A DNA stretch of 36,870 bases, from the NCBI GenBank assembly GCA_020073615.1, contig JAIQEX010000066.1:1-36870 (forward strand), written 5' to 3'. The translations under genes were made by a program, and so were the position numbers. Under the pieces are notes generated by a model that was given only the letters and a program-made list of their open reading frames with translations, was not told the origin of the DNA and searched no databases. Source of the stretch: Terriglobia bacterium. Its GTDB lineage: Bacteria > Acidobacteriota > Terriglobia > Bryobacterales > Bryobacteraceae. This document shows positions 13,500-30,368 of this stretch, in pieces (positions within the stretch are counted from its first letter, which is position 1; each line of letters opens with the position of its first letter).

Positions 13500-14468
13500 A
13501 TGGCAGCGAAGACCAGATTTGAAGTGAAGCTCGGGCCGGCCACGCGCGAGGCTTTCGGGCGGGCGCTGGTGGAGTTGGGCCGCGAGAACAAAGACGTCGT
13601 GGTGTGCGACGCGGACCTTTCGAAATCCACTATGACCACGTACTTCGCCAAGGAATTTCCCGAGCGGTTCATCTCCCTCGGCATCGCCGAGGCCAACATG
13701 GCGGCGGTGGGCGCGGGGTTGGCCTACGCGGGCAAGATTCCGTTCATCGCCAGCTTCTCGGCCTTCGCCATGAACAAGGGGTTCGAGCAGCTTCGTGCGT
13801 GCGCGGCGTATCCCCAAGTCAATCTGAAAGTGGTGGGGACGCACAGCGGCATCTCGATCGGCGAAGACGGCCCTTCGCAGATGAGCGTGGAAGAGATCGG
13901 GTTGGCCTGTTCGCTGGCCGGCTTCGTGGTGATAGCGCCGGCCGACGAAGCGTCGACCAAAGCGCTGGTGCGCGCCGCGGCGGCGTACGTGGGGCCGGTA
14001 TTCATCCGCACGGGACGTCCGAAAGCGCCGGTGATTTACAACGGAGACCAGAAGTTCGAGATCGGCAAAGCCATCGAGGTGGTGGCGGGGCAGGATGTGG
14101 CGATCGTCGCCAGCGGGCTGCTGGTGGCGGAGGCGATTTTGGCGGCGGAGACGCTCGAAGGGGAAGGCGTCCGGGCACGCGTCATCGACATGCATACGGT
14201 GAAGCCGATCGACCGCGAGACGATTCGCCACGCCGCGACGGAAACCGGCGCCATCGTGGTAGCCGAGGAGCACCTGGTAGATGCCGGGCTGGGGGTGCGG
14301 GTGGCGCAGGTGGTGGCGGAGACGGCGCCGTGCCCCATGGAGTTTGTCGGCATCCAAAACACCTACGCGGAATCCGGCCAGCCGGAGGAGTTGATGGACA
14401 AATACGGGCTGGTGGCCCGCGACGTGGCCGCGGCAGTTCGCAAGGTGGTGGCGCGGAAGAAGCAGTAA
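13500..14468 (+). CDS. transketolase, C-terminal (pyrimidine-binding) subunit
   Basis: Product of 322 residues starting one base after the N-terminal subunit. It has the pyrimidine-binding domain with the catalytic-Glu region FISLGIAEANMAAVGAGLA, the following IPFIASFSAFAMNKGFEQL, and GTHSGISIGEDGPSQMSVEE. The C-terminal transketolase domain includes FIRTGRPKAPVIY, VAIVASGLLVAEAI, VIDMHTVKPID and IVVAEEHLVDAGLG. It completes the active site of the split enzyme in the cytoplasm. The next gene, a sensor kinase, begins three bases after its stop, so the two-component genes are probably co-transcribed with transketolase. Confidence 0.93.
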   Translation: MAAKTRFEVKLGPATREAFGRALVELGRENKDVVVCDADLSKSTMTTYFAKEFPERFISLGIAEANMAAVGAGLAYAGKIPFIASFSAFAMNKGFEQLRACAAYPQVNLKVVGTHSGISIGEDGPSQMSVEEIGLACSLAGFVVIAPADEASTKALVRAAAAYVGPVFIRTGRPKAPVIYNGDQKFEIGKAIEVVAGQDVAIVASGLLVAEAILAAETLEGEGVRARVIDMHTVKPIDRETIRHAATETGAIVVAEEHLVDAGLGVRVAQVVAETAPCPMEFVGIQNTYAESGQPEELMDKYGLVARDVAAAVRKVVARKKQ

Positions 14469-14471
14469 GCC

Positions 14472-15476
14472 ATGACGGGCGACCGATGCCGATGTTCCGA
14501 TAGGTTTCTCGAGCAGAGCCCCGGGTGTCATTGGGTGGTGGGCGCCGATGGCATCTTTCAGCGAGTCTACGGCGATGCAGCGGCGCTCTTCGGCAAGCCG
14601 GCCGCGGAACTGGAGGGGCGGCCGGCGGCTACGGCGATCGATACCGATCTCTACCTGGTGTGGCGGGGCCGTTTCGAGCGGGCGTTTGCGGGCGAGACCG
14701 TGATGGTGCGCGAGCGGCGCGGGACCGGCACCTGGCTGATCACCCTCTTTCCCATGCGGGCGGAGGGAGCGATCTGCTGCGCCGGCGGCACCGCGGGCGA
14801 AGTTACGCCCTGGAGCAGCGCCGAGCGCGAGTTGCGCAACACCGTGCTCGGTGCGCTGAAGGCCCAGGAATTCGATCGCGCCATGGCCTCCAAGTTCCTG
14901 CACGATTCGGTGGGCCAGAATCTGACGGCGTTCGGCCTGCAACTCGATCTCATCCGCATGGACCTGGAGAGCGTGCAGCCGGAAACCTGCGCGCGGGTTA
15001 CGGAGATCCAGGGCGTACTCGAAACCATGATGGAAGACGTGCGGGAATACAGCTACGCGTTGAATCCATCGACGGTGGAACGCGCCGGGCTCCGCTCCGC
15101 CCTGGACCGCCTGACCGCGCGCATCCACGAGCGATTTGCCGGCGTGTTGCGAGTGAATGTGGATCCGTTCCTGAAGCTCGACCCCAAGATAGCCGTGGCC
15201 CTCTATCAGATTGCCCAGGAGGCCGCCGAGAACGCCGTGCAACATGCCAGTTGCTCCGCGATTGAAATCGCGGTAAAGTCCACACGTACTGGTACTGTTC
15301 TGGAAGTCCGGGACAATGGGCGGGGATTCGATCCTTCCGACACACTGAGGGGATGCCGCGGTTTGGGGCTGTTGAGCATGGAACACTATGCCGCGCAGGC
15401 GGGTTTAGATCTTTCCATCACCAGCAACCGGGAGTTTGGAACGACCGTAAAAGCGGCGGCGGTGGAAGCCGCCTGA
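14472..15476 (+). CDS. soluble NarL-family sensor histidine kinase with PAS-like domain
   Basis: Product of 334 residues. The N-terminus (about 12-100) is PAS-like: FLEQSPGCHWVVGADGIFQR and LFGKPAAELEGRPAAT. It carries a few cysteines (CRC near residue 6, a further Cys at about 17, and CC near 100) that might sense redox or bind metal; this is speculation. There is no transmembrane segment, so a cytoplasmic signal is expected. A HisKA_3 dimerisation domain follows with the phospho-accepting FLHDSVGQNLTAFGLQL (H144). The ATPase domain has the N-box IAQEAAENAVQHA and G-box VRDNGRGFD plus GLGLLSM. It lies 3 bases after transketolase and 9 bases before its cognate response regulator. The kinase class pairs with LuxR/NarL regulators, as found here. 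Confidence 0.93.
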   Translation: MTGDRCRCSDRFLEQSPGCHWVVGADGIFQRVYGDAAALFGKPAAELEGRPAATAIDTDLYLVWRGRFERAFAGETVMVRERRGTGTWLITLFPMRAEGAICCAGGTAGEVTPWSSAERELRNTVLGALKAQEFDRAMASKFLHDSVGQNLTAFGLQLDLIRMDLESVQPETCARVTEIQGVLETMMEDVREYSYALNPSTVERAGLRSALDRLTARIHERFAGVLRVNVDPFLKLDPKIAVALYQIAQEAAENAVQHASCSAIEIAVKSTRTGTVLEVRDNGRGFDPSDTLRGCRGLGLLSMEHYAAQAGLDLSITSNREFGTTVKAAAVEAA

Positions 15477-15485
15477 GACACAACT

Positions 15486-16163
15486 ATGCCATTCGACATT
15501 GTTCTCGTCGACGATCACAAGCTGGTGCGCGATGGCGTCAGGGGCATCCTGGAGCGCGGCACGGAGTTTCGCGTGGTGGGGGAAGCGGAGAACGGCGCCG
15601 ACGCGGTGCAGCTCTGCAAGAAGTCGGCGCCGGACATGGTCCTCATGGATATCGGCCTGCCCGGGATGAACGGCATCGAGGCCACCACCGAACTGCTGCG
15701 CCACTGCCCCGGCGTCAAAGTGGTGATCCTTTCCATGTACGACGACGAGAACTCGGTGGTGAGCGCCATCCGTTCGGGGGCGCGCGCGTTTGTGCTCAAG
15801 AAGGCTTCTTCGAGCGAGTTGCTGGACGCGCTGCGCACGGTGGCGCGCGGCGGCTCCTACCTGAGCTCGCAGGTGTCCGACCACCTGCTGGCGCGCATCC
15901 AGCGCGGCGACCTGGACACGCACGATCGCAGCCCGCTGGAATCGCTTTCCCCGCGCGAGCTGCAGGTGCTGCGCCTGGTGGCCGAAGGCAAGACCAGCAA
16001 GGATATCGCCGTGCTGCTCGACCTGGGCCTGCAGACCGTGCGCAGCTACCGCAAGACCATGATGAAAAAGCTGGGCGTGAACAACGTGGCCGGGCTGACG
16101 CAACTGGCGCTGGCCGCGGGCATCACCCACTGGAACAAACCGGATGCTAACACCCTGGGGTGA
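15486..16163 (+). CDS. NarL/FixJ-type response regulator
   Basis: Product of 225 residues. The receiver domain (1-120) has the acidic pair VDDH at 9-11, the phospho-acceptor in LMDIGLPG (D55), Ser/Thr-position LSMYDD and the conserved Lys in VLKKAS. The DNA-binding LuxR-type helix-turn-helix lies at about 155-215: LSPRELQVLRLVAEGKTSKD, then LGLQTVRSYRKTMMKKLGV. It is phosphorylated by the kinase encoded 9 bases upstream and should act as a dimeric transcription regulator. Its last 20 bases overlap the next gene, an amidohydrolase. Targets cannot be read from this window; the tight packing with transketolase and the hydrolase suggests co-expression. Confidence 0.95.
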   Translation: MPFDIVLVDDHKLVRDGVRGILERGTEFRVVGEAENGADAVQLCKKSAPDMVLMDIGLPGMNGIEATTELLRHCPGVKVVILSMYDDENSVVSAIRSGARAFVLKKASSSELLDALRTVARGGSYLSSQVSDHLLARIQRGDLDTHDRSPLESLSPRELQVLRLVAEGKTSKDIAVLLDLGLQTVRSYRKTMMKKLGVNNVAGLTQLALAAGITHWNKPDANTLG

Positions 16164-17052
16164 TTTCCCCGCAAGCGACGCGCACGTGCATTTCTTCTCG
16201 CGGCGGTTCTTCGCGACGCTGGGCGCGCAATGCGGCAAGAGCGCCGAAGAGGCGGCCGGTGCGGCGGGCTGGGACCTTCCGCCGGAAGACCCCGCCGAAC
16301 TGGCGCGCACCTGGGCGGCGGAGATGGACCGGCACGGCGTGGCGCGGGCCGCGCTGATTTCGAGCGTTCCCGGCGACGAAGCGTCGGTGATTGCCGCCGC
16401 CGCCGCCTGCCCCGGCCGTTTCCATGCCTTCGCCATGGTCAACCCGCTGTCGGGGAACGCCACCGTCGCCGCGGGCCTCGAGGCCGTGTGCCTGTTCCCC
16501 GCCATGCACCTGTACTCCATGGCCGACGCGCGCGTCGAACCGCTGCTGGAGCAGGCCGCGGCAGCGCACTGCGCGGTGTTTGTGCACTGCGGGGTGCTGA
16601 CGGTGGGGGTGCGCAGGAAGCTGGGACTTCCCTCGACGTTCGACATGCGCTATTCGAATCCCCTCGACTTGCACGCGGTGGCGCTGCGCTTTCCCGCGAC
16701 GCCGTTCCTCATCCCCCATTTCGGCGCGGGCTATCTGCGCGAAGCCCTGATGCTGGCCGACCTGTGCCCCAACGTGTACCTGGACACCTCCAGCAGCAAT
16801 TCCTGGATGCGCTATGAAGGCCTGGAGCTGAAGACCGTATTCCGCCGGGCGATCGAGGCAGTGGGCGCCTGGCGTCTGCTGTTCGGGACCGACTCTTCCT
16901 TCTTCCCGCGCGGCTGGAACTACGAAGTGTTCGAAGCGCAGGTGCAGGCGCTGCTTGCCCTGGGAATCAGCGGCGAAGAGGCAAGATTGATTCTGGGAGA
17001 GAATCTGGAGCGGATTTTCGGGGGGCAGGCGGAGCAGCCGGCGGCAGGTTGA
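16144..17052 (+). CDS. amidohydrolase-2 family metal-dependent hydrolase
   Basis: Product of 302 residues from ATG 16144, overlapping the response regulator by 20 bases. It has the amidohydrolase TIM-barrel metal motifs in order: HVH in SDAHVHFF (H14, H16), a His in VFVHCGVL (about 147), a His in LIPHFGAGYLREAL (about 191) and Asp in LFGTDSSFFPRGW (about 247). The family (PF04909) contains decarboxylases and hydrolases of cyclic acids, lactones and amides, including ACMSD-like and TIM-barrel fold enzymes; substrate assignment is not possible here. Cytoplasmic, no signal peptide. It ends the run that began with transketolase; a GCCCGC/GCGGGC hairpin (17059-17075) follows but has no T run. Confidence 0.88.
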   Translation: MLTPWGDFPASDAHVHFFSRRFFATLGAQCGKSAEEAAGAAGWDLPPEDPAELARTWAAEMDRHGVARAALISSVPGDEASVIAAAAACPGRFHAFAMVNPLSGNATVAAGLEAVCLFPAMHLYSMADARVEPLLEQAAAAHCAVFVHCGVLTVGVRRKLGLPSTFDMRYSNPLDLHAVALRFPATPFLIPHFGAGYLREALMLADLCPNVYLDTSSSNSWMRYEGLELKTVFRRAIEAVGAWRLLFGTDSSFFPRGWNYEVFEAQVQALLALGISGEEARLILGENLERIFGGQAEQPAAG

Positions 17053-17183
17053 GAAACGGCCCGCGCCCAGCGGGCTCGTGGCGTGGACTTCGTGTCGACC
17101 GCTTGGCAGGCGCGTGCGCCTTCCTCAGCCGAGCGGCTTTGCCAACGCAGTGTCTAGGTCGGACAATCAGTTGAGAGTTCCGA

Positions 17184-18056
17184 GTGAAGAATCACTCAAG
17201 CCTCACCGCAGAATACATGGCGCTGTTCCGTGCCCTCGAATCGTCGCGGCCTGCCGATTCGCGCCTCTTCGTCGACCCCCACGCGGCCTTTTTCCTTCGC
17301 GGTTGGCGGAGGTGGCTCTATGGGATTGCCCGGTTTCACGCCGGGCTCCGACTCGCGGAGGTGTTGCTCGATCGAGCTGCTCCAGGCGCAAGAGCGGCGG
17401 GTATCGCCCGCACCAAGTGGATCGATGATGAGGCCACAGCGGCTTTGGAAACCGCCACGCAGCTCGTCTTGCTCGGAGCCGGATTCGATACGCGCGCCTA
17501 TCGCCTGACCGCCGCAACGCGCGCTACCACTTTTGAGCTGGACCACCCGGAAACCTCCTTCGCCAAACAGGCAATATTGAGAAAGGTGAGGCGATCGCTA
17601 CCGGAGCCGGTCCGGTATACCGGTATCGATTTCAACAGCCAGTCTGTTACCGAGGTTCTCCTGGAAGCGGGGTTCGACAACCGACGACCCACCTGTTTTA
17701 TCTGGGAAGGCGTCACGAACTACTTGACGGCGGAAGCCGTCGATAGCGTTTTGCGTCAGATTCGGCAAACGGCCAGAGACAACATTCTAATATTCACCTA
17801 TATCGATTGCACCGTTCTCGACCATCCGGAACGGTTCTTCGGTGCTGCGAAGTTGATGGCCAGGCTGCAGTCGTACGGTGAGCCCTGGACGTTTGGGCTG
17901 CATCCCGACGAGCTCAAACCGTTTCTTGCCGCCCGAGGATTCGAGCTGGTCAACGATTCGTGTGTCGCCGAGGTATGGAAGCGTGCACGTCGATCAAGCT
18001 CCGGCACGCGCGGATACGAGTTTTATCGGCTCGCCTCAGCCCGCGTGGCGTATTGA
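17184..18056 (+). CDS. class I SAM-dependent methyltransferase, leucine carboxyl methyltransferase-like (TIGR00027/PF04072)
   Basis: Product of 290 residues. SAM-binding motif I is LVLLGAGFDTRAYRL at about 93-107, followed by the family's acidic FELDHPETSFAKQAIL, and FIWEGVTNYLTAEAVD, a block typical of the TIGR00027/LCMT group. Such proteins methylate carboxyl or other groups on polyketides, peptides or unknown small molecules; no partner is encoded beside it. The N-terminal SLTAEYMALFRALES and the short conserved RTKWIDD also match the family. The gene stands alone, 131 bases after the amidohydrolase and just before a decayed glycosyltransferase tail. Its start at 17184 is the first good ATG of the family-length frame. 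Confidence 0.87.
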   Translation: MKNHSSLTAEYMALFRALESSRPADSRLFVDPHAAFFLRGWRRWLYGIARFHAGLRLAEVLLDRAAPGARAAGIARTKWIDDEATAALETATQLVLLGAGFDTRAYRLTAATRATTFELDHPETSFAKQAILRKVRRSLPEPVRYTGIDFNSQSVTEVLLEAGFDNRRPTCFIWEGVTNYLTAEAVDSVLRQIRQTARDNILIFTYIDCTVLDHPERFFGAAKLMARLQSYGEPWTFGLHPDELKPFLAARGFELVNDSCVAEVWKRARRSSSGTRGYEFYRLASARVAY

Positions 18057-18183
18057 CGCCCGGCGTGGGTGGCCGACCGGGTCTCCGACTCAAGAGCTGG
18101 CCGGGAACACGCCGGGCAAACAATAAGGGCGGACAGGCATCGGGATCGCCAACTACGCGAGCTCCGGCGCCGATGCGAAAGAG

Positions 18184-18743
18184 TTGCGCGGGAAGCTCTA
18201 CGCCGCTGCCAAAAAGCCCGTTCGCACCGTGATCGGCGATCCGTCGATTGCACCGCCGTTCACCGCCAAACAGGGTCAATATCTGGCCGTCATCTACAAA
18301 TATCCTCATTACCTGTCGTTCTTCAATGTTTTGGTTGGGGGACCGTCGCATGGCCCAGAATACCTATCGGATTCAAACATCGACTGGGGCCAGGATGTTA
18401 AGTATCTCAGGGCTTACGCAGACTCGCACGGCATCAGGAATCTGTGTTTGAGTTACTACGGCCTCGCCGACCTGGGCTACTACGGGATCGCATGCCGGCC
18501 TATCCCCAAGTACTCCAGCCTGGCTGCCTTAGGTAAGATGGACTGCACCGTCGCCGTTAGCTCACCAACCTGTATAACCCCGACGGGTCGTTCGAATGCC
18601 TGCGGGCGATTGAACCGGAAGCCCGCGTTGGAAACAGCATATACGTTTACAACCTCCAGGCCGATTGGACCAGGTTGCGCGGCCCTGACGACTCGTATAG
18701 CGCGGCCTTCGCCCGCACCCACCTCGCGCCAGGCGCCAGGTGA
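18184..18743 (+). pseudogene. C-terminal remnant of a GT39/ArnT-like membrane glycosyltransferase
   Basis: From about 18280 the frame encodes the soluble C-terminal signature I know from dolichyl-phosphate-mannose/ArnT-like glycosyltransferases: YPHYLSFFNVLVGGP, then YLSDSNIDWGQDVKYLRAY and LSYYGLADLGYYGIACRP. After CTVAVS (ending 18561) the match continues only in the frame shifted by one: TNLYNPDGSFECLRAIEP, EARVGNSIYVYNLQADW, up to TGA 18741-18743. Restoring one base after 18561 would read AVSVTNLY, the usual family sequence, so a single-base deletion is the simplest explanation. The large N-terminal membrane domain is absent upstream; the stretch 18184-18280 is not recognisable. In the unshifted frame translation would run on into the downstream GDSL gene, which has its own ATG and signal peptide. 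Confidence 0.78.
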
Positions 18744-18819
18744 TTTGAGAGATGTCGCGAGGCTTCGGGCCCGGCTGCGGCTTGATTATTTCCCAGCCCC
18801 CTGCCATACAATAGCTACC

Positions 18820-19575
18820 ATGCGCATTATCCTTGCGTTCCTGGTAGCGGCCGGCGCCTGGGCCCAGCAACCCCCGCACGAGCCGGCCGTGGTCGGCCGC
18901 CTGCGCGCCGCGCTAGATGGCATCAGCCATACCATTAACGATTTCGGCGACACCCGCCGTTACGCTCCCGACAACGAGACGGTTCCGCCGCCCGCCCCCG
19001 GCGAGGAGCGTGTGGTCTTCCTGGGCGATTCCATCACCGATTTCTGGGGGCGCCGCGGCAGCCCGTTCTTTCCCGGCAAACCGTATATCAACCGCGGTAT
19101 CAGCGGACAGGTCACGCCGCAGATGCTGGTCCGCTTCTATCCCGATGTCGTCGCGCTGCGGCCCAAAGCCGTTGTCATACTGGCCGGGACCAACGATATC
19201 GGCGGCAATATCGGCCCCCTGCCCGTCGAGGCCTCGGAGAACTCCCTGATGTCCATGGCTGATCTGGCGCGCGCCAATAACATAAAGGTCATCCTGTCTT
19301 CGCTGCTGCCCGTCTCGGACTATCATCCCCGCCCCAACCAGCCGCCGCAAACTCAGACCAGGCCGCCCGAAAAGATCCTGGCCTTGAATCGCTGGCTCCG
19401 GGATTACGCCGCTAAGAATCAGTTTGTCTATGTCGATTACTTCTCCGCCATGGTAGACGACAAGGGCCTCTTCCGCGCGGAGCTCACCGACGACGGATTG
19501 CATCCCAACGCGGCCGGCTACGAAGTTATGGCTCCGCTGGCGGCGAAGGCCATCGCCGCGGCGCTGGCCCGCTAA
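18820..19575 (+). CDS. secreted GDSL/SGNH-family hydrolase
   Basis: Product of 251 residues from ATG 18820, chosen because it starts a clean signal peptide (MRIILAFLVAAGAWAQ). The frame is open far upstream only through the glycosyltransferase remnant. SGNH blocks are present: GDSITDFW with nucleophile Ser71, GQVTPQML (block II Gly), GTNDIGG with Asn125, and DGLHPNAAGY with Asp225 and His228. The catalytic Ser-His-Asp triad and oxyanion residues are therefore complete. SGNH enzymes remove acyl or acetyl groups from lipids, carbohydrates or arylesters. The following two genes encode exported carbohydrate-active-like proteins, 9 bases and -4 bases away, so a role as a carbohydrate esterase acting on the same glycan is a fair inference. 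Confidence 0.93.
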   Translation: MRIILAFLVAAGAWAQQPPHEPAVVGRLRAALDGISHTINDFGDTRRYAPDNETVPPPAPGEERVVFLGDSITDFWGRRGSPFFPGKPYINRGISGQVTPQMLVRFYPDVVALRPKAVVILAGTNDIGGNIGPLPVEASENSLMSMADLARANNIKVILSSLLPVSDYHPRPNQPPQTQTRPPEKILALNRWLRDYAAKNQFVYVDYFSAMVDDKGLFRAELTDDGLHPNAAGYEVMAPLAAKAIAAALAR

Positions 19576-19584
19576 GGCGGCCTC

Positions 19585-20730
19585 ATGACTGACTCGCACA
19601 CTCCCTCACCGGGGCGCCGCGGCTTCCTTCGGCGCCTGTTCACGGCCGGCGGTTTCGCCGCCGCCGCTCCCCAGTCCGCCCTGCCGCAAGCGCGCGACGC
19701 CGGCGTGTCGGACCTTTCGTTGCTACCCGCGTACACCCGCGCGCGCAACTGCAAATCACGGAAGCAATCCAGCTTCGATCGCACCGGCGGCAACCGCGAC
19801 TACTGGACCATCGCGGCCGGAGCTACGCAAGCGGTGTTCGAGGCCGATGGACCCGGGGTCATGAGCCACATCTGGTTCACTATCGCCGCGCGCGGCGGAG
19901 ACCACCTGAAAGAGCTGGTGCTGCGCGGTTACTGGGATGGTAATGCGAGGCCCAGCGTCGAAACGCCCATCGGCGACTTCTTCGGCCTCAACCTGAACTC
20001 CTACCATATCTATCAATCCGAATATCTGGCCTGCTCGCCGGGTAAGTCGCTCAACTGTTACTTCGCCATGCCATATCATAAGTCGGCGCGCTTTACCGTT
20101 ACTAACGAAGGCAGGCAGGAAGTGGGCGCCTTTTACTCCAACATCGATTACATCACGGTGCCCAAGCTACCCGATGACGCCCTGTACTTCCACGCACACT
20201 ACCGTCAGAGCGCACCCTGCGTGCCGGCTGCGGGTGATTCCGCCAGGCTGAATCCCGACGGCCGGCAGAATTACGTGTACGTGGAAACGCGCGGCCGCGG
20301 CCACCTGATGGGCGTAACGCTGGGCGTGCTCCAGAACGCCGACGGCTGGTGGGGCGAGGGCGACGAGATGATCTTCGTCGATGACGAAGCGAAACCGGCG
20401 ATGACCGGCACAGGTTCGGAAGATTATTTTCTGGGAAGCTGGGATTTCGGCGGACGGGACGGGGCCGAGCCCTTCGCGCACGCTATGTACGGCGCGCCGC
20501 TGATCGTGAACGCCGAGCGCACCGGCGGCCGCTACTGCTGCTACCGCTGGCACGGCGACAACCCGGTGACTTTCGAGCGTTATCTCAAACACACGATGGA
20601 ACACGGCCACGCCAACGACCGCGGCGACAGTTTCTTCTCGGTGGGCTACTGGTACCAGGCCACGCCTTACACCGATTTTCCCGCTCTTCCGCCGCTTGCG
20701 GCGCGCATCCCGCGAGTGAGGACCGCGTGA
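19585..20730 (+). CDS. exported DUF2961 / glycoside hydrolase family 172 protein
   Basis: Product of 381 residues. The N-terminus has a twin-arginine signal (GRRGFLRRLFTAGGFAAAAP), so Tat export is likely. The core matches DUF2961, now classed as GH172: residues about 45-130 contain FDRTGGNRDY and the GVMSHIWFTI strand, followed by GDFFGLN and NCYFAMPYHKSARF. The strongly conserved motif GTGSEDYFLG (Glu279) corresponds to an active-site acidic position in the family. Characterised GH172 enzymes act on difructose anhydride and on alpha-D-arabinofuranosides or fructofuranosides; the substrate here is unknown. It starts 9 bases after the GDSL hydrolase gene and its stop overlaps the GTG of the next gene, so the three form an operon for glycan processing outside the cytoplasm. 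Confidence 0.9.
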   Translation: MTDSHTPSPGRRGFLRRLFTAGGFAAAAPQSALPQARDAGVSDLSLLPAYTRARNCKSRKQSSFDRTGGNRDYWTIAAGATQAVFEADGPGVMSHIWFTIAARGGDHLKELVLRGYWDGNARPSVETPIGDFFGLNLNSYHIYQSEYLACSPGKSLNCYFAMPYHKSARFTVTNEGRQEVGAFYSNIDYITVPKLPDDALYFHAHYRQSAPCVPAAGDSARLNPDGRQNYVYVETRGRGHLMGVTLGVLQNADGWWGEGDEMIFVDDEAKPAMTGTGSEDYFLGSWDFGGRDGAEPFAHAMYGAPLIVNAERTGGRYCCYRWHGDNPVTFERYLKHTMEHGHANDRGDSFFSVGYWYQATPYTDFPALPPLAARIPRVRTA

Positions 20731-28611: not shown

Positions 28612-28619
28612 CGGAAAGT
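28612..28619. repeat. left target-site duplication of the ISL3 element
   Basis: CGGAAAGT, identical to the octamer at 30361-30368 at the far side of the element. Eight bases is the duplication length known for the ISL3 family. Confidence 0.93.
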
Positions 28620-28643
28620 GGCTCGTCCGGGGAATCTGTGGGT
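28620..28643. repeat. left terminal inverted repeat of the ISL3 element
   Basis: Begins GGCTCGTCCGGGG and ends ATCTGTGGGT at 28634-28643. Aligned without gaps to the reverse complement of 30337-30360 it matches at 18 of 24 positions, including TCGTC and an unbroken 11-base block AATCTGTGGGT. Confidence 0.88.
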
Positions 28644-28655
28644 AACTTGCGGGTC

Positions 28656-29018
28656 TCAGCGCTGGGATTGAGTGAGGAAACGGTGAAACTTGCGGCAGGT
28701 GGAATCGAAAGAACGCTGCTCGTCTTCCCAGCCGTTGTGGATCAGCGGACCGCCGTCCTCATGGATCGCGGTTCGAACAAGTTGTTCGGCGGAGTTCTTT
28801 CTTGAACGAGGCTCTTCGTTCACGTCGCGGATGATCTCTCCGCCGAGCAGCCACATATTGTCGACGTGGTTTTGGATGGTTCTTTTCGACAGGCTGGACT
28901 CGGCGAGGTGAACGAGGAAGGGCATGAAGTATTCCACGAGCCTTTGCCCGACAGGAAGATCCTTTTCCTCGCCCATCCAACGCTTCAACGCTCTGGCCAC
29001 TCCGAAAGATCGCGGCAA
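28656..29018 (-). CDS. passenger gene of the ISL3 element, unknown function
   Basis: Product of about 120 residues if started at TTG 29018; ATG 28976 would give 106. The segment QRLVEYFMPFLVHLAESSLS followed by KRTIQNHVDNMWLLGGEIIR resembles the N-terminal helical (SAM-like, core-binding) domain of tyrosine recombinases, then comes DVNEEP and a C-terminal CRKFHRFL. I recall similar uncharacterised proteins in many bacteria, so it is probably a genuine gene. No catalytic recombinase domain is present. Upstream the same frame stays open to 29084 with protein-like sequence (RFSPINARRAIALLPGLP), but has no ATG. A good ATG (29080, MKTNPDS) lies one frame off, so the gene may carry an N-terminal frameshift. 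It lies wholly inside the inverted repeats, divergent from the transposase, hence mobile cargo. Confidence 0.7.
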   Translation of the reverse strand: MPRSFGVARALKRWMGEEKDLPVGQRLVEYFMPFLVHLAESSLSKRTIQNHVDNMWLLGGEIIRDVNEEPRSRKNSAEQLVRTAIHEDGGPLIHNGWEDEQRSFDSTCRKFHRFLTQSQR

Positions 29019-29102
29019 TCCCGGCAGTAGGGCAATAGCACGGCGGGCGTTAATAGGAGAGAATCGGGATTCGTCTTCATCTTCCTATCGATCTAAGAAC
29101 TC

Positions 29103-30354
29103 ATGCGCCTTCCCAGAATTTTGAACCAGTGCCATCCCATCCCGGGGTTTGTCTACGGGCAAGCCAGTTTCGCCCAAGACCAGCAAGCCGTTCTGATCCC
29201 GGTCCGGCCGCGGAAACGATCCACGGCCCTTTGTTCGGGCCGCCATCAACCCGCGCCAGGCTATGACCAGTCTCGCACGCCGCGGCGATTCGAGTTCATC
29301 GGATTCTGGGGCTATCTGGTTTTTCTGGTCTATTGCATGCGACGGGTCAACTGCCAGCAATGCGGGGTGGTGGTCGAAGAAGTGCCGTGGGGTATGGGGA
29401 AGCACGCCTCGACCAAGGTTCACATGCATTTTCTGGGGCATTGGGCGCGCAAACTCTCCTGGAAGGAAACCGCCGAAGAGTTCCGCACCTCCTGGGACAA
29501 GGTCCACGACGCGGTGGAGTATCTGGTCACCTGGGGGCTGGAGCATCGCGTCCTGGGGGCGATTCGCGCCATTGGCGTGGATGAGATTCAGCGCGGCAAA
29601 GGCCACAAATATCTGACCTTAGTGTATCAGATCGATCTGGGCTGTACCCGGCTGCTGTGGATCGGCAAGGAACGGACCGTGAAAACCTTCAAGGAATTCT
29701 TTGCCATGATCGGCCCGGGGGTGTCGGCGAAGATCGAGTTCGTCTGCTCGGACATGTGGAAACCCTATTTGGGGGTGATTCGCGAGAAGTGTTCCCAGGC
29801 CCTCAATATCCTCGACCGGTTCCACATCGTGGCCAAGGTGAATAAGGCGCTCGACGACATCCGCTCCGCCGAAGCCCGGCGCATGAAGGGGGACGGGTAC
29901 GAACCGGTCCTGAGCAAGTCCCGCTGGTGCCTTCTCAAGCGGCCGGCGAACCTCACCGCCAACCAGAAGGTGAAACTGAAAGACCTGGTGCGCTACAACC
30001 TCCAGAGCGTTCGCGCTTATCTGCTCAAGGAAGATTTCCAGCAACTCTGGAATTACGAGTCCACCGCCTTGGGCAGCCAAGTTCCTCGACCAATGGTGCC
30101 GCCAGGTGATGCGCTCGCGGATCGAGCCGATGACGAAAGTCGCCAGAACTTTACGCGCTCACCGTGAACTCATCCTCAACTATTTTCGTGCCCGAAAAGA
30201 GTTCTCCAGCGGCGTAATCGAGGGTCTGAACAACAAAGCGAAAGTCACCATGAGAAAATCCTACGGATTCCGAACCTTCCGCGTCACCGAACTGGCGCTC
30301 TATTATTCACTTGGCAAGCTGCCCGAGCTGGAACTCACCCACAGATTTTTCTGA
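29103..30354 (+). pseudogene. ISL3-family transposase, frameshifted
   Basis: The first frame (29103-30167) gives the N-terminal part: a zinc-ribbon-like region, then the DDE domain with first Asp in IGVDEIQRGKGHKYL and second Asp in SDMWKPYLGVIREK followed by LNILDRFHIV. After NYES (30051-30062) the family sequence continues in the +1 frame from 30070: WAAKFLDQWCRQVM, then the catalytic Glu block SSGVIEGLNNKAKVTMRKS, YGFRTF and the C-terminal LELTHRFF. One extra base near 30069 (a T in CCTTGG) explains the break, so the first-frame product lacks the catalytic Glu. In the N-terminal ribbon one expected Cys is Arg (LCSGRHQPAPGYD, CGC where TGC would give Cys). Starting Met and MRLPRILNQC agree with the family's usual start. 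Confidence 0.92.
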
Positions 30355-30360
30355 CGAATC
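30337..30360. repeat. right terminal inverted repeat of the ISL3 element
   Basis: Reads ACCCACAGATTTTTCTG... and its reverse complement begins GATTCGTCAG and ends ATCTGTGGGT, pairing with 28620-28643. It contains the last codons and stop (30352-30354) of the transposase. Confidence 0.88.
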
Positions 30361-30368
30361 CGGAAAGT
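30361..30368. repeat. right target-site duplication of the ISL3 element
   Basis: CGGAAAGT, identical to 28612-28619. It begins directly after the last base of the right inverted repeat. Confidence 0.93.

Follow-up and report, generated by a model that had tools for sequence, protein, structure and literature searches.

A decayed ISL3 element with a conserved divergent passenger gene, a candidate DNA-binding tuner of transposition

The window, as the whole 36,870-nucleotide stretch of DNA analysed here is called, contains an ISL3-family insertion sequence in which a transposase and a second, divergently oriented gene, the passenger, lie between imperfect inverted repeats. This copy is a decayed relic, while the wider element family is not decayed. 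With somewhat better than even confidence, and judging from sequence comparison, it may be read as a descendant of elements in which the transposase stood head-to-head with a gene for a SAM-like DNA-binding protein of about 140 residues that tuned transposition. The ancestral elements of this subgroup would have held two head-to-head genes between their repeats, one for a DDE transposase and one for this probably helical protein, which appears to share ancestry with the SAM-like domain that binds DNA at the N-terminus of tyrosine recombinases.

The element occupies positions 28620-30360 (1741 bp) and is flanked by the octamer CGGAAAGT, identical at 28612-28619 and 30361-30368, as an earlier note on this DNA had claimed; the 8-bp target duplication of ISL3 is thereby present on both sides. 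The 24-bp inverted repeats described in that note are present as well, at 28620-28643 (plus strand) and 30337-30360 (minus strand), but they are imperfect, pairing at 18 of 24 positions (GGCTCGTCCGGGGAATCTGTGGGT / GATTCGTCAGAAAAATCTGTGGGT). Terminal inverted repeats of ISL3 elements are typically about 15-40 bp long. The claimed length of 1741 bp is confirmed. A search for further copies returned four more in the same genome (contigs C139, C142, C169, and C79), all matching from exactly the first base of the element, so that the left end is independently fixed. Three of the four reach a contig end or stop a few bases short of it, as would be expected of a repeat. Among 237 genomes from the bacterial family of the window, 42 contain the left-end pattern and none a reversed-pattern control. 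Comparison with 41 genomes (its own and 40 relatives) yielded no readable empty site, because in G001 only the left flank is conserved (up to the end of the upstream gene) and the right flank is not. Two local arrangements were also noted. At L016:1-300 the left end of one copy abuts the inner part of another copy's right end in opposite orientation, which suggests a rearrangement, and at L013:3269-3418 a second partial passenger lies just beyond the element end of the copy on C139, suggesting an older copy.

The transposase had been read as a single ISL3 gene with its stop in the right repeat. Its family membership (PF01610) and the position of the last stop, at 30352-30354 inside the repeat, held, but it is not a single gene. 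The first part (DDE_Tnp_ISL3, with PF01610 and NF033550 matches) covers 29103-30064 on the plus strand and the last part covers 30065-30354 on the same strand in another frame, within overlapping open frames at 29103-30167 and 30106-30354. Relative to a sibling copy (L021), one extra base near 30064 splits the gene over two frames, and PF01610 consequently matches in two pieces (158.9 and 63.0 bits; cut-off 23); NF033550 matches the first piece at 189.3 bits (cut-off 180). In addition, the zinc motif CSGC of the sibling reads CSGR in the window, where the codon at 29241-29243 specifies arginine in place of the second zinc cysteine. The N-terminal zinc ribbon PF14690 reaches 24.6 bits in a Paraburkholderia copy (cut-off 25.5), and the window transposase, one cysteine short, is not matched by PF14690 in the Pfam scan. 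Being frameshifted, the window copy lacks an intact transposase.

Decay extends to the passenger. A minus-strand gene of about 120 residues had been proposed between the left repeat and the transposase; it is a real open reading frame, although the frame is wrong for its first residues and the native protein is longer. The main part (from about RWMGEEK) lies at 28656-28985 on the minus strand and corresponds to positions 36-144 of the family profile, while an N-terminal piece (MKTNPDS...EWPER; profile positions 7-37) is encoded in another frame at 28988-29080, also on the minus strand. An insertion of 8 nt relative to the sibling, at approximately 28987-28994 (minus strand), shifts the frame: L021, L022, and the copy on C142 read ...EWPERWMGEEKDL... 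in one frame, whereas 8 additional bases interrupt the window sequence near 28994. The apparent TTG start is therefore an artefact, and the 120-residue frame comprises a sound C-terminal part plus a few out-of-frame residues. Where the frame is open and an ISL3 left end lies alongside, passengers measure about 134-148 amino acids and share a core of approximately EKDLPPG..LV..F.PFL..L....LS.KTI..HVDNLW.LGGEIIRDL...P.LRK....GGPL....E.EQRSFDSTCRKL.RFL. In Paraburkholderia the start codons of passenger and transposase overlap on CATG.

A frame that is broken and begins with TTG might be taken for a chance open reading frame opposite non-coding DNA. This explanation is rejected, its probability being close to nil, since homologues in two phyla hold the frame at 38-91% identity to L021 and dN/dS is far below 1. 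Three close pairs (dS 0.35-0.42) gave dN/dS values of 0.119, 0.225, and 0.226; values of 0.10-0.40 were obtained across the 47 of 55 pairs that allowed computation, among which only the close ones carry weight because dS is saturated (>1) in most distant pairs. Passenger distances correlate with transposase distances (r 0.71, n=11), a value matched in 0 of 5000 permutations. The passenger is under purifying selection and diverges in step with the transposase.

The suggestion in the earlier note that the passenger recurs inside the repeats beside ISL3 transposases received strong support, and the opposite outcome, homologues never beside such transposases, proved false. To follow up the profile matches in the family genomes, 60 stretches were fetched, including L129 from the phylum sample, with some family matches, mostly at contig ends, left out. 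Among 26 passengers complete at the 5' end (profile match beginning no later than position 20, with 150 bp or more of contig past that end), 23 adjoin the N-terminus of a divergent ISL3 transposase (22 of 25 with the duplicates L022/L093 counted once), a count that includes one weak transposase match (L124). There are three exceptions: in L095 and L108 the left end persists, and in L093 a second copy has only an inner piece of transposase. On the other side of the gene, a left-end motif (matching at 14 or more of 17 positions) lies within 400 bp of the passenger 3' end in 56 of 66 loci with that end present and at least 60 bp beyond it, usually 35-46 bp past the match; counting each of the duplicate pairs L022/L093, L023/L104, L024/L117, and L025/L139 once gives 52 of 62. 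Ten loci lack the motif by this measure (L013, L103, L110, L112, L113, L115, L118, L120, L129, and L149). Five of them score 12-13 of 17 at the usual distance, and the L013 miss reflects two merged passenger pieces, its left end being present. Exact 8-bp duplications flank five of 13 distinct passenger-bearing loci scanned: the window, L028 of Caballeronia (CTTTTTTA), L030 of Paraburkholderia (AAAAAAAT), L094 (TTCTTTTT), and L099 (TCAAATTA). The Polaromonas locus L027 has a duplication matching at 7 of 8 positions, and the other seven (L021, L022, L029, L096, L097, L105, and L116, with L096 stopping at a contig edge) have no 7- or 8-bp duplication. Both Acidobacteria and Burkholderiales thus contain passenger-bearing elements with exact duplications.

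The passenger profile was found in at least 31 of the 237 family genomes and in at least two of 396 genomes sampled across the phylum, its own included, and a scan of genome contigs with the window protein gave six loci, all in Acidobacteria. Beyond the phylum the search covered plasmids, phages, and viral contigs. Five plasmid records carry the passenger: three from one strain of Paraburkholderia aromaticivorans, one from Caballeronia, and one from Polaromonas. Of 192 plasmid records with a transposase match, the five that are more than 60% identical are exactly these five; among the others, 55 listed matches are at most 32.6% identical and a further 132 are all under 60%. Neither phages nor viral contigs contained a match to the passenger profile, and a phage origin was dismissed on that account.

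The proposed likeness of the passenger to the N-terminal domain of tyrosine recombinases found moderate support. In an hhalign comparison with SAM-like domains taken from six tyrosine recombinases of the same genome, the passenger profile scored 31.0 over 71 columns with an E-value of 1e-4, although the match itself is weak (probability 57). None of 100 column shuffles scored as well (mean 10.8, maximum 19.6), and the reversed alignment and the ISL3 transposase reached 11.8 and 15.4, respectively. Pfam SAM-like matches below threshold appeared in two of 15 passenger members. Scans of Pfam, NCBIfam, PADLOC, and PHROG gave no significant match for the passenger, the best Pfam E-values being 0.13-0.15, and a search of solved structures gave a best E-value of 0.19 and nothing meaningful. 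An AlphaFold model from four sequences (pLDDT 47) was too poor for fold comparison. A defence family was considered and dismissed, as a PADLOC defence scan of three members returned nothing. The protein is only about 140 amino acids long, and no match to the catalytic domain (Phage_integrase) was seen in the Pfam scans; a SAM-like resemblance of this kind, lacking a catalytic domain, might reflect a captured fragment of a tyrosine recombinase that interferes in dominant-negative fashion with host or phage recombinases. Such an origin is considered quite improbable given that the similarity is remote, and tight linkage to one transposase subgroup supplies no reason for a recombinase target.

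The most likely prediction for the passenger is a small protein that binds DNA and assists or regulates transposition. Its gene ends beside the left end of the element. Its start abuts that of the transposase, which makes repression or activation at a shared promoter the simplest reading. The protein would bind element DNA, most likely at the shared divergent promoter and/or the left end, and would tune transposition as a repressor or as an architectural cofactor of the transposase. The alternative to action at the promoter would be action at the left end.

Related elements without a passenger bear on this proposal. The earlier note had named, as evidence against its reading, related elements whose left end lies to the right of 29018. 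This was found in part: in a more distant set of elements, group B, transposases are 45-50% identical, and the six loci with a left end read (L195, L196, and L198-L201) have it only about 315-447 bp upstream and have no passenger, whereas many closer relatives (65-76%) have no passenger but a more distant left end with other cargo. Sequence common to group B elements is limited to 23-29 bp at the left end and about 29-114 bp around the start of the transposase. Their middle parts are unrelated between elements (and self-repeating in L200), and no conserved accessory gene was seen in them. Transposase matches occur in 66 of the 237 family genomes, and many of these transposases are 65-76% identical with no adjoining passenger. 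Many of the passenger-less transposases form the right-hand ends of longer elements, with the same left-end motif 0.8 to 5.4 kb upstream. Exact 8-bp duplications flank ten of 17 such elements that have transposase sequence and both ends, a set omitting left ends at contig edges or with no right end or transposase in the stretch. These ten (L187, L191, L203, L204, L206, L207, L211, L223, L232, and L234) span 1977 to 6331 bp; the L204 element lies at 14926-19673 and that of L206 at 13775-19777 (reverse complement). L215 has a duplication matching at 7 of 8 positions, and L202, L205, L208, L222, L228, and L236 at no more than 6 of 8. Because relatives lacking the passenger carry exact target duplications, the passenger appears dispensable in cis and is probably not required there.

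It is surprising that a side branch of the ISL3 subgroup carries host operons. The elements of L204 and L206 contain genes for a PadR regulator (TIGR03433) and an ADOP permease (TIGR03434), L223 a TIGR03437 gene, and L232 a TIGR03435 gene. Matches below curated cut-offs identify the cargo of L191 as an MBL-fold-like protein, that of L234 as an ankyrin-like protein, and that of L207 as a nucleoside-hydrolase-like protein, the last beside IS21-like genes read by eye. An M1-aminopeptidase-like protein was recognised by eye in L203; L187 holds a 264-residue frame with no match, and no cargo was assigned in L211. TIGR03435 and ADOP genes are also carried by L205 and L208, respectively, which have no matching duplications. 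Four of the ten elements with exact duplications therefore carry ADOP/PadR, TIGR03435, or TIGR03437, families with many members in these genomes (counts per genome across four genomes: 24 to at least 56 for ADOP, 0 to 56 for TIGR03435, and 16 to 86 for TIGR03437). The TIGR03433-03437 families are lineage-expanded. By estimate, ADOP/PadR, TIGR03435, and TIGR03437 make up a few per cent of the genome, and the excess of such numerous host families among the cargo is suggestive only, because the question was posed after the data had been seen. Outside the element of L206, a few hundred bases from its left end, there is another ADOP gene (genome G630, contig C3, about 3077097-3079565), so that placement beside such genes may matter besides capture. 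The elements of L204 and L233, which come from two genome bins (G650 and G644), share the octamer TGATTTTC and are identical over their first 700 bp, reflecting either one population split across bins or transfer of a larger region.

The borders of the cargo are sharp in places and not uniform. Nine left ends of one clade align over about 168 bp, after which the match ends abruptly; the left border nonetheless varies, since in L207, L208, L222, and L225 the common part ends at about 85-92 bp. On the right, the sequence common to L191, L204, L206, and L207 starts about 100 bp before the transposase, at CAGCGTTTATCGAT, and the common length is about 48-66 bp in L187, L203, and L211, about 37-43 bp in L205, and below 15 bp in L208 and L234. 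Seven of the nine aligned left ends have the motif TAAACGCT at the left border, and L191, L204, L206, and L207 have it in opposite orientation at the right border, a correspondence that may be coincidence.

Since unrelated host genes occupy the passenger slot in these sister elements, the slot accepts cargo. The passenger might accordingly be no partner of the transposase at all, being host-beneficial or self-maintaining cargo that acts outside transposition and was fixed early by chance in this ISL3 subgroup. A solitary homologue points the same way: L129:2597-2983 (plus strand), from another family of the phylum and found in one of 13 genomes of its class, is an intact passenger with no ISL3 transposase within about 2.6 kb and no left end nearby (it falls outside the 26-locus set because its profile match starts at position 29). 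Known ISL3 passengers are also described, in passages of the literature, as uninvolved in transposition (PMC4133298; see also PMC6305408). Nevertheless, the libraries scanned gave no significant match to a toxin, defence, transport, or enzyme family, L129 is the only homologue among the loci fetched that shows no trace of an element, and overlapping head-to-head starts and co-divergence fit a partner of the transposase better. Independent cargo is thus regarded as a possible but rather unlikely account of the passenger.

A transposase tree of 16 passenger, 15 passenger-less, and 7 group B rows (with L189 and L190, at contig edges, omitted) bears on the age of the association. Each of the three lineages of the subgroup includes passenger-bearing elements and only one of them contains elements without it, and because of this distribution the passenger is probably ancestral to the transposase subgroup. 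The best tree implies five changes of cargo label, of which well-supported branches alone force two. It may tentatively be proposed, with doubts that outweigh confidence, that in this family of soil Acidobacteria the space between left end and transposase serves as a cargo bay, ancestrally filled by the SAM-like helper and in derived elements by host genes or operons, and that the elements spread ADOP/PadR, TIGR03435, and TIGR03437. If so, they move members of these families and contribute to family spread. The sister elements with other cargo would offer a concrete means of moving host operons numerous in these soil bacteria. As for the helper or regulator favoured here, Acidobacteria and Burkholderiales have in common a simple insertion sequence whose accessory gene is conserved, and since this gene stands head-to-head with the transposase in both groups, its effect on transposition is directly measurable.

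A search of open-licence literature found no paper on the passenger family or on ISL3 elements carrying ADOP. The Solibacter genome paper (PMC3174227) and a comparison of Acidobacteria (PMC5900883) discuss mobile elements, and a term search found neither ISL3 nor PadR in their main texts. The SAM-like domain of tyrosine recombinases (PF02899) is similar in profile to the passenger over the 71 aligned columns, but the passenger has no catalytic domain. IS1096 is an ISL3 element with an accessory gene inside it; its TnpR, which we take to belong to the PRiA4_ORF3 family (PF07929), represents a domain that no passenger matched in the Pfam scans. Single-gene ISL3 members have the same DDE_Tnp_ISL3 transposase, an 8-bp duplication, and imperfect repeats of about 24 bp; some members have no passenger, whereas here a conserved divergent second gene occupies the left side. 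One passenger-less ISL3 element is ISArsp7, described in part of one report with 24-bp repeats and an octamer duplication (PMC6305408). For IS1182-type elements, one section of the literature discusses passenger capture via a degenerate left repeat (PMC12056078). There too, as far as that section goes, host genes enter the element by way of a second, distant left end; IS1182 belongs to another IS family, however, and here nine left ends share a module of about 168 bp. ISPpu12 and ISPst2 are likewise ISL3 elements with extra genes between their ends. In the descriptions consulted, ISPpu12 carries TnpR and two further genes, and a title cited there credits TnpR with regulating ISL3 transposition (PMC4133298); family scans alone set the passenger apart from this TnpR, as it has no significant Pfam or NCBIfam regulator match. 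ISPst2 is described as carrying a permease and an ArsR regulator, which the PadR and permease cargo of the sister elements parallels in kind (PMC6305408). ISL3 elements with passengers are therefore already known, and what is new is a subgroup in which a divergent accessory gene is conserved.
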